DNA of 42,890 nucleotides. Source: Sphingobacteriaceae bacterium. Lineage in GTDB: Bacteria; Bacteroidota; Bacteroidia; B-17B0; Aurantibacillaceae. Under the pieces are notes generated by a model. The model was not told the DNA's origin. It searched no databases and was given only the letters and a program-made list of their open reading frames with translations. Below are positions 28,087-30,171 of the stretch, one piece after another. Where the stretch lies: positions 67,255 to 110,144 of the forward strand of contig CANKBS010000009.1 in the NCBI GenBank assembly GCA_947480015.1. Reading direction: 5' to 3'. Numbering within the stretch: the stretch's first letter is position 1; every line of letters starts with the position of its first letter. Position numbers and translations under genes: made by a program.

Positions 28087-28725
28087 ATGAACTCCGCTTT
28101 TGCTTCCATTGGAAAAAACCTGATTTTATTAGGGGTCGTTTTGTTATCAAGTTTGAATTTTTTTTATGCCTGGTTTAATTGGAAAGAAATGATGGGCATT
28201 GAAATCTTTGCAGGCTTTGCCTATATTTTCTTGAGTTGTTATGAGTATTTAAATGCCAGTTACAAAGCTTCCTTGCCTATTCAACGTTATCCATATTTTT
28301 CAAGTCACTTCATCATGTTCAGATCACTTAAAATAGGTGTTTTTCTGGCCTTTGCGGTTCTCCTCTTTAGCTCAGGCAGCGGCTTAAAATACATGTATCC
28401 CATATGTTTAATAATCGCATTAACCGAAGGCTGTATGCTGGTTTTAAAATACCGAAACTCACTTTGCTTTGTAAATATTTATGCGAATTATTTGTTAATT
28501 GCCGAAAATAAATTCACGAAACTTTTTGCTTCAGAAATCATGGTGATTGAATTCAGACATGACATTTTCTATTTTGTAAAAAAGAATACCAAAACAGTTA
28601 CCGTTAAACTTGATCATATACGCGATAAGGAAAATTTTTTAATGGCAATCAATAATTGGATTAACCGAAACAATGTTTTGGTTAGCGCCGAATCAAAAGT
28701 GAAAATCAAAGAACTAATCGATTAA
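28087..28725 (+). CDS. Hypothetical four-helix membrane protein
   Basis: 212 residues. Four hydrophobic segments (LILLGVVLLSSLNFFYAWF, IEIFAGFAYIFLSCYEYL, IGVFLAFAVLLFSSG, MYPICLIIALTEGCMLVL) are followed by a soluble ~80-residue C-terminal domain with alternating strands (VIEFRHDIFYFVKKNTKTV) and a terminal helix. That tail looks like a small PH-type fold, but the resemblance is weak. No catalytic motif. It stands alone, divergent from the BatA-domain gene. Confidence 0.75.
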   Translation: MNSAFASIGKNLILLGVVLLSSLNFFYAWFNWKEMMGIEIFAGFAYIFLSCYEYLNASYKASLPIQRYPYFSSHFIMFRSLKIGVFLAFAVLLFSSGSGLKYMYPICLIIALTEGCMLVLKYRNSLCFVNIYANYLLIAENKFTKLFASEIMVIEFRHDIFYFVKKNTKTVTVKLDHIRDKENFLMAINNWINRNNVLVSAESKVKIKELID

Positions 28726-28927: not shown

Positions 28928-28935
28928 CTTTACTG

Positions 28936-29009
28936 TAGCGGAAACGAGAGTTGAACTCGTGACCTCAGGGTTATGAATCCTGCGCTCTAACCATCTGAGC
29001 TATCCCGCC
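28936..29009 (-). tRNA. tRNA-Met (anticodon CAT), elongator type
   Basis: 74 nt cloverleaf. The acceptor stem GGCGGGA / TTCCGCT has G-T wobbles at pairs 1 and 6, and the discriminator is A. The D arm is GCTC AGATGGTTA GAGC, the anticodon loop TTCATAA with CAT, the variable loop AGGTC, and the T arm ACGAG TTCAACT CTCGT. CCA is not encoded. The anticodon stem lacks the three G-C pairs of initiator tRNA, so this is elongator Met; an Ile tRNA with a modified CAT anticodon cannot be fully excluded. Confidence 0.93.
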
Positions 29010-29021
29010 ATTTTCGGGCTG

Positions 29022-29053
29022 CAAATATATAACATTCAGACTCAATTCCCAAA
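29022..29053 (-). promoter_or_regulatory. Promoter of the tRNA gene: TTTG - 20 bp - TATATTTG
   Basis: On the minus strand TTTG (29053-29050) and TATATTTG (29029-29022) are both exact consensus elements, 20 bp apart. They lie 12 bp upstream of the mature tRNA 5' end. This is one of the two best promoter matches in the window. Confidence 0.75.
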
Positions 29054-29121
29054 ACAAAATTATTTGAGATTTTAATTTGCTTTCTTGTAAAAATTTTATA
29101 CATTTCACAAAATTTTTAAGT

Positions 29122-30171
29122 ATGTCGAAAAAGAGCAAGGATTCGTCTGGTAAAACCGGAAAGAAAAGTCCGGTTAAAAAAACCACGAAAAATGATAAAA
29201 AGCCTTCGGCGAAGAGTAAGCCTGCCAAAAAAGCTGTGACTAAGAAGGTAATTGTTAAAAAAGTTACCAAAGTCCCTTCAAAAAAAGCTCCCTCTAAACC
29301 TGTTTCAGTAAAAAAACAGCTGGCTAAAAAAATACTTGTTAAAAAGGCTGTAAAATCTGAAAAATCTAAAGTTGTTCCGGCTGCAAAAACTAAAAATGTT
29401 GTTGTAAAATCTTCTCCGGCTAAAAAAGCAAACACTGTTAAAGTGGCGATAAAACCTTCAAAATCAGCAGCAGTGAGTGCAAAAGCTATCATAACTGCTA
29501 AAAACACTGCGATTAAGCGCGAAAAGGTTGTTACGAAAGCAATTCCTGCTGGGTCTGCTCCTAAAAAAGAATCGGCTAGCGCTATTGAAAAAGCTAAAAA
29601 ATCGGAAGAATTAATTACTAAAAAACAATTAGCCGAAAAACGCTCATTAGAGGTTTTAGCTATTACAAATACCATACCCGTAAAAGCAAAAAATGAGATT
29701 TCCCAATCAAAAATCGCCTCCATTTCGCATTCCATTACCAATCCTATTAAGAAAACCGATTCTTATGCGGTAAAACCCGAAAAAGAACCCAATGGTAAAT
29801 TTGAACTTGAATTTGTGGTGCATTCTTCTGCCGAGATGTTATATGAGTTTTTATCTACACCAAGTGGACTTTCTGAATGGTTTTGTGACGATTTAAATAT
29901 TCGCAATGGTATTTATACCTTTATTTGGGACGATCAGTTACAACAAGCCCGTTTACTCAAAACAGTTGAACTTCATTTGGTTCGTTTTCAGTGGGTAGAT
30001 AAAACAGATGGTTCTTATTTTGAATTTAGAATTCAACGTGACGATTTAACCAACGATATTTCACTCATCATCACCGACTTTGCTGAAAATGTATCAGACC
30101 GTGAATCATCTAAATTATTATGGCATAGTCAAATTGAGAAGCTCATGCATGTGATCGGCTCAATCTTCTAA
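29122..30171 (+). CDS. Histone-H1-like Lys/Ala-rich tail fused to a START-like domain
   Basis: 349 residues from the ATG at 29122; the frame runs a little further upstream but MSKKSKDSSG is the natural start. Residues 1-225 are a low-complexity basic tail of Lys, Ala, Val, Ser and Pro with repeated KKA, SPAKKA and KPS words, like eukaryotic histone H1 tails and bacterial H1-like proteins. Residues 226-349 are a complete START-like/AHSA1-type domain: KFELEFVVHSSAEMLYEFLS, TPSGLSEWF, YTFIWDD, YFEFRIQRDD and LWHSQIEKLM. That ~125-residue domain is commonly a free-standing protein in Bacteroidota. No methionine sits at the junction, so it cannot be two genes in this frame. DNA or nucleoid binding is inferred from the tail only. 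Confidence 0.88.
   Translation: MSKKSKDSSGKTGKKSPVKKTTKNDKKPSAKSKPAKKAVTKKVIVKKVTKVPSKKAPSKPVSVKKQLAKKILVKKAVKSEKSKVVPAAKTKNVVVKSSPAKKANTVKVAIKPSKSAAVSAKAIITAKNTAIKREKVVTKAIPAGSAPKKESASAIEKAKKSEELITKKQLAEKRSLEVLAITNTIPVKAKNEISQSKIASISHSITNPIKKTDSYAVKPEKEPNGKFELEFVVHSSAEMLYEFLSTPSGLSEWFCDDLNIRNGIYTFIWDDQLQQARLLKTVELHLVRFQWVDKTDGSYFEFRIQRDDLTNDISLIITDFAENVSDRESSKLLWHSQIEKLMHVIGSIF

Follow-up and report, generated by a model that had tools for sequence, protein, structure and literature searches.

A histone H1-like lysine-rich tail joined to a START_2 domain is a recurring architecture in Bacteroidia

The open reading frame at 29122–30171 (+ strand) of the window, by which we mean the whole 42,890-nt stretch of DNA analysed here, raises the question of whether a single protein joins a tail resembling those of H1-type nucleoid proteins to a START-like domain and, if so, what such a tail would do for the domain. 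The frame begins with ATG and runs uninterrupted through 349 codons to a stop. The initial annotation had read it as one polypeptide with a Lys/Ala/Pro-rich tail over residues 1–225, a complete START-like domain over residues 226–349 and no internal start codon between them.

A single polypeptide with three parts

Using hmmscan, we found that residues 226–346 match the START_2 family (PF19569) from position 6 to position 125 of the 126-position profile, with an E-value of 1.5e-39 and a score of 135.2 bits against a curated cut-off of 23.6. This places the protein in PF19569 and agrees with the annotation of a complete domain, for which such a profile search had been proposed. At E up to 1, no Pfam family other than START_2 was matched, so that the tail matched none, and NCBIfam profiles gave no match for the whole 349-aa protein. 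A search of PDB sequences gave a single match at E < 1, to 2lio (4.1e-18), whose chain is an example of a START_2 protein. In the AlphaFold2 model, the domain (residues 226–349; 29797–30168, +) is predicted to adopt an AHSA1-type helix-grip START fold, with block pLDDT values of 93–97 and a last block at 85, whereas the tail is predicted to be disordered, with block pLDDT values of 42–54 over residues 1–170.

The 225 residues ahead of the domain contain 27% Lys, 12% Ala, 7% Pro and 1% Arg and carry a net charge of +48. They are not uniform, and the initial description of one Lys/Ala/Pro tail across all of them holds for the overall H1-like composition but not for its extent, because residues from about 177 to 225 form a separate, conserved linker. 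The tail proper is a low-complexity segment rich in Lys, Ala, Val and Pro (residues 1–176; 29122–29649, +). Across 28 sequences (our own included), and excluding the final 45 residues ahead of the domain, tails average 33% Lys, 13.5% Ala, 11.7% Val, 9.4% Pro and 0.3% Arg, a Lys/Ala/Pro-rich and Arg-poor composition of the H1-like type found in AlgP. A search of the genome with residues 1–183 (E up to 10) found no second gene with a similar tail and a composition scan found no other such open reading frame in the window, searches that leave room for further lysine-rich proteins encoded in other parts of the genome.

The linker (residues 177–225; 29650–29796, +) stands out in alignments and in substitution rates, with the pattern EVLAI.NTIP...EIS.SKIASIS.SITNP...DSY..KPEKEP.GKFE. 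Within the genus, its roughly 45 residues match the START_2 domain in conservation. Close relatives carry the full linker, and more distant family rows of a 36-row alignment share mainly the final EP.GK; no second copy was found in the genome itself at E up to 10. Both AlphaFold2-type models predict a short helix at residues 195–205 (29704–29736, +), with block pLDDT values of 76 and 61 in the first model and about 56 in the second, which was built from linker and domain with 28 sequences and is the poorer of the two (mean pLDDT 69). The architecture therefore has three parts: tail, linker and START_2 domain.

The same three parts occur in all 20 whole genes recovered from a sample of 25 same-genus genomes (own genome included), with 175–252 aa preceding the domain. 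Of the other five genomes, three have no match (G005, G020 and G022), one has a contig-end fragment (G013) and one a contig-cut gene (G011). For 11 pairs of relatives, we obtained dN/dS values of 0.13–0.44 for the tail (10 pairs computable), 0–0.08 for the 45 residues immediately ahead of the domain (10 of 11 computable) and 0.01–0.05 for the domain (7 of 11 computable); these figures are rough because several dS values are saturated and the tail alignments are gapped, and all lie well under 1. The remaining pair (L015/L099) has a more diverged linker, with 21% nonsynonymous differences and a ratio that could not be computed. Given that 20 of 20 genes are fused and that dN/dS is under 1 on both sides of the join, translation runs through the join, which excludes a sequencing error hiding a stop and a separate start near 29797. 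On sequence grounds, the fusion is a genuine single polypeptide. The absence of an internal start codon holds for ATG but not for GTG, which occurs in frame at residues 39, 108 and 118 and nowhere from residue 119 to the start of the domain. The 3.77-Mb assembly contains a single START_2 match.

Tailed and short forms across Bacteroidia

The domain had been described as usually standing alone in Bacteroidota, and our phylum sample bears this out: START_2 was matched in 74 of 296 genomes and its frame is at most 190 aa in 73 of them, the exception being the genome studied here, in which 225 residues precede the domain. The fusion is not, however, a peculiarity of this genome. Within its own order, here a single family of ten genera, START_2 was matched in 74 of 87 genomes and, among the matches listed, frames measure 270–411 aa except in two cases where the frame reaches the end of its contig (G011 and G370). 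In the class sample (Bacteroidia), 341 of 396 genomes have a match, nearly always one per genome. We compared 125 of 126 different sequences, leaving out one cut by a contig end (L004); a 10-base placeholder record (L172) entered none of the counts. Of these, 74 have 134–379 aa ahead of the domain and 51 have 2–52 aa, with no lengths in between; the 74-to-51 split is not a population ratio because the set is enriched for close relatives. One counted sequence (L147) has an over-extended start whose frame crosses the tRNA described below, making its 250-aa tail too long and its tRNA scored as overlapping. Tailed forms were found in 12 family-level groups (f1, f6, f7, f9, f16, f68, f74, f75, f81, f86, f108 and f113). 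A tree of 55 domains, only weakly resolved, shows seven or more changes of tail state, so that repeated gain or loss of the tail is likely, with a soft count of changes. The tailed START_2 protein is thus a recurring Bacteroidia architecture within an already known family.

Charge is retained across this set. Net charge ahead of the domain ranges from +36 to +92 in the 74 tailed sequences, from loci of 35–68% G+C. At the G+C-rich end, a locus of 68% G+C with a tail of 73% G+C (L029) has 14% Lys and 14% Arg and a charge of +74. Low G+C therefore does not account for the lysine richness; because Arg maintains the charge there, the conserved property is charge and not AT-rich codons. In four tails from three families (L141, L142, L149 and L151; f68, f74 and f75), we also saw a basic motif of the GRKPKK, GRKKKN or GRRKSKK type followed by an Asp/Glu stretch; this may be a shared sub-element, and none was seen in the genus studied here.

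That the fusion might prove both common and already characterised had been raised at the outset. It does recur, but among the papers listed by searches of open-access literature none dealt with the function of PF19569, with START_2 proteins bearing a tail or with the tRNA-Met/START_2 pair discussed below, and print literature may differ; the available text of PMC10942540 does not treat START_2. A domain present in most sampled Bacteroidia is thus one for which we found no function paper in that literature.

A tail that would hold the domain on a polyanion

We favour, tentatively, the reading that a soluble START_2 protein is held by its H1-like tail on an intracellular polyanion, most likely chromosomal DNA. 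The disordered, cationic N-terminal tail would grip the polyanion through charge and flexibility and not through sequence, which would explain why tail length and letters drift while basic character stays. The linker would present its short helix, on which the domain or a partner might dock, and the START_2 domain would supply a specific activity, such as the binding of a client protein or hydrophobic molecule, wherever the tail holds it. Against this reading, many tailless orthologues sit in the same locus, so that the core function does not require the tail.

The two parts of this reading differ in strength. Its composition suggests that the tail probably binds a polyanion; DNA as the main target, suggested by the same composition, is a more guarded proposal, since composition cannot separate DNA from RNA, polyphosphate or an anionic membrane. 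The tether is supported by the consistently high charge of the tailed forms, the empty interval between short and long pre-domain lengths, and purifying selection that acts on the tail and is very strong in the linker, with the more diverged linker of one pair in 11 counting against it. The contrast between a tail predicted to be disordered and a confidently modelled domain is also consistent with it. There is, moreover, a bacterial precedent: according to the available text of PMC9239181, AlgP of Pseudomonas aeruginosa has an H1-like tail with KPAA repeats, binds DNA and associates with polyphosphate granules. The two bacterial proteins share an H1-like tail rich in Lys, Ala and Pro; the AlgP tail is C-terminal, whereas the tail here is N-terminal and its partner domain is START-like. 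The proposed joining of a nucleic-acid-binding part to a START domain also has a counterpart in plants, where, as described in the available text of PMC3645734, HD-Zip III/IV transcription factors combine a homeodomain, a zipper and a START domain of about 200 aa. Here, by comparison, a disordered basic tail precedes a 124-aa START_2 domain, and Pfam at E up to 1 gave no homeodomain match.

The basic histone-like type Hc1 (PF07432) occurs in 123 of the 396 sampled genomes of the class. The START_2 fusion protein itself has no Hc1 match at E up to 1, and Hc1 is absent both from its genome, which fits the tether, and from every one of the 19 f1 genomes in the class sample. If the tail substituted for Hc1, tailed proteins and Hc1 should not occur together; yet among 48 rows with both states known, Hc1 is present in 5 of the 26 with a tail and 8 of the 22 without one, which gives the idea no support. 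An independent-pairs test showed no association (median p of 1), with only two pairs on well-supported branches and hence little power.

If the tether is real, the built-in basic tail is a handle, in that its destination should tell where the START_2 domain works, and the tailed and tailless relatives form a natural series for testing the roles of H1-like tails in bacteria.

Genomic context, fold and competing readings

The START_2 gene lies head to head with a tRNA gene with a CAT anticodon (28935–29009, −), separated from its ATG by a 112-nt intergenic region (29010–29121). Scanning 30 tRNA loci of the genome (31 matches) gave three with a CAT anticodon. One (L223) we take to be the initiator tRNA-Met from its GGG/CCC stem, and a second (L213) shares 76% identity with an E. 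coli tRNA that has a CAT anticodon and the annotation tRNA-Ile, which by elimination leaves the gene beside START_2 (L220) as elongator tRNA-Met. Similarity to phage tRNAs did not serve to identify it, as the labels 'tRNA-Ile' and 'tRNA-Met' contradict each other, and its five best listed matches in E. coli include weak ones to tRNA-Gly. Among 119 of the 126 loci (seven with less than 420 nt upstream, L004 among them, were left out), 91 have a divergent CAT tRNA no more than 420 nt away, an arrangement that occurs in at least 20 family codes, 4 have it on the same strand as the START_2 gene and 24 lack it.

Boxes resembling promoter elements face both ways from the intergenic region and recur in relatives: TGCAAATATA at 29020–29029 for the tRNA and TATACATTTC at 29097–29106 for the START_2 gene. 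Among 92 divergent intergenic regions, which are related sequences and not independent, CAAAnnTA (TAnnTTTG towards the tRNA) was present in 91, against a base-shuffle mean of 10.6, and TAnnTT[TG][CG] lay within 60 nt before the START_2 ATG in 75, against a mean of 12.1. Taking TAnnTTTG as the Bacteroidota −7 promoter consensus, we read the 112-nt region as containing two putative divergent promoters. As a gene-order feature, this retained pair with a promoter-like box for either gene extends across the class.

This arrangement bears on the first competing reading, in which the tail would bind RNA, ribosomes or polyphosphate and the protein would be a translation- or storage-granule-associated START_2 factor. 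We regard it as possible, though not the likelier course, given the widespread pairing with an elongator-type tRNA-Met and the granule association of AlgP (PMC9239181, available text). However, the divergent tRNA is equally frequent with a tail (52 of 69 loci) and without one (39 of 50), and the link is therefore uninformative about the tail. Nor is the conserved neighbourhood unique. When we compared the two nearest genes per side of 39 tRNAs in one f21 genome with those of the 31 here (26 anticodons in common), five neighbourhoods were conserved: tRNA-Met/START_2, a cluster of tRNAs next to a 395-aa protein that is presumably EF-Tu, and those of Leu-CAA, Gln-TTG and Phe-GAA. The pairing is thus notable but not exceptional, being one of five. 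The last three (L282/L320, L284/L314 and L288/L299, respectively) keep their protein-gene neighbours between two distant families.

Protein-coding neighbours bear on a second alternative, that START_2 handles a lipid or lipid A precursor while the cationic tail holds it at the anionic inner membrane. We counted neighbours at 37 of 39 loci, all from other genomes, leaving out two missed by the gene caller (L153 and L169), and named clusters by Pfam on one or two representatives each (two for LptF/LptG, one each for PAP2 and PMT_2). In 13 loci from 10 families, genes of an LptF/LptG cluster share the START_2 strand at positions +1 to +4; a PAP2 phosphatase cluster is nearby in 9 (in 6 of them immediately downstream and in the same orientation) and a PMT_2 glycosyltransferase cluster occurs in 5; aminotransferase class IV and AlgH-like proteins occur in 4 each, and further clusters recur too. 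Loci with LptF/LptG, PAP2 or PMT_2 neighbours include L141, L149 and L157. These neighbours in other families hint at envelope-lipid biology, but LptF/LptG adjoins tailed and tailless forms alike, and the neighbours in our genus are different: a BatA/VWA protein, dihydroorotase, a TonB receptor and DXP reductoisomerase. Aromatic, His or Cys residues make up just 32 of 4,783 tail residues, which gives no hint of a hydrophobic anchor in the tail, and we consider this alternative rather unlikely. A 212-aa protein encoded at 28087–28725 (+), which falls below family cut-offs (best PF16288, E 0.15), neighbours START_2 here and in L136.

The predicted fold raises a third alternative. Foldseek ranked 2m89, a bacterial Aha1, first (E 1.5e-7), and structural alignment with VIA-align gave Z-scores of 16.7 for 3q63 (rmsd 2.4) and 16.0 for 2m89 (rmsd 2.2), each over 123 residues and effectively tied. 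These Aha1-type matches make a client- or chaperone-type surface as plausible as a lipid pocket, and START_2 might accordingly act as a co-chaperone on HtpG or another chaperone, with the tail as a general electrostatic hold. We consider this doubtful. The likeness lies in the predicted fold, at about 15% identity to tailless chains of 134–137 aa, and other helix-grip folds (plant PYL, Bet v 1 and aromatase/cyclase) score close behind. With the whole superfamily scoring so near, the matches place the fold and not the function.

A more elaborate version of the favoured tether would make it ligand- or client-gated: START_2 would sense an envelope lipid or precursor, the tail would hold it on the nucleoid (or RNA), the linker would switch between the two, and the shared control region would tie expression to elongator tRNA-Met. 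We regard this as very improbable; were it true, envelope state, nucleoid and translation capacity would be coupled in a manner specific to Bacteroidia. Least probable of all is that the tail is a neutral, functionless low-complexity accretion, as its variable length, poor alignability and at least seven changes on a weak tree might suggest, given its dN/dS, the lack of intermediate lengths, the charge kept across a wide G+C range and a linker conserved like the domain.

Two smaller observations concern the tail-coding DNA. In one close pair (L010/L011), the synonymous difference is 0.20 in the tail and 0.50 in the domain, contrary to what a faster-changing region would lead one to expect; recombination or codon constraint is a possible cause. 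On the opposite strand, a 256-aa frame at 28971–29741 (−) overlaps both the tRNA and the tail and is probably a mirror of the lysine-rich tail rather than a gene.
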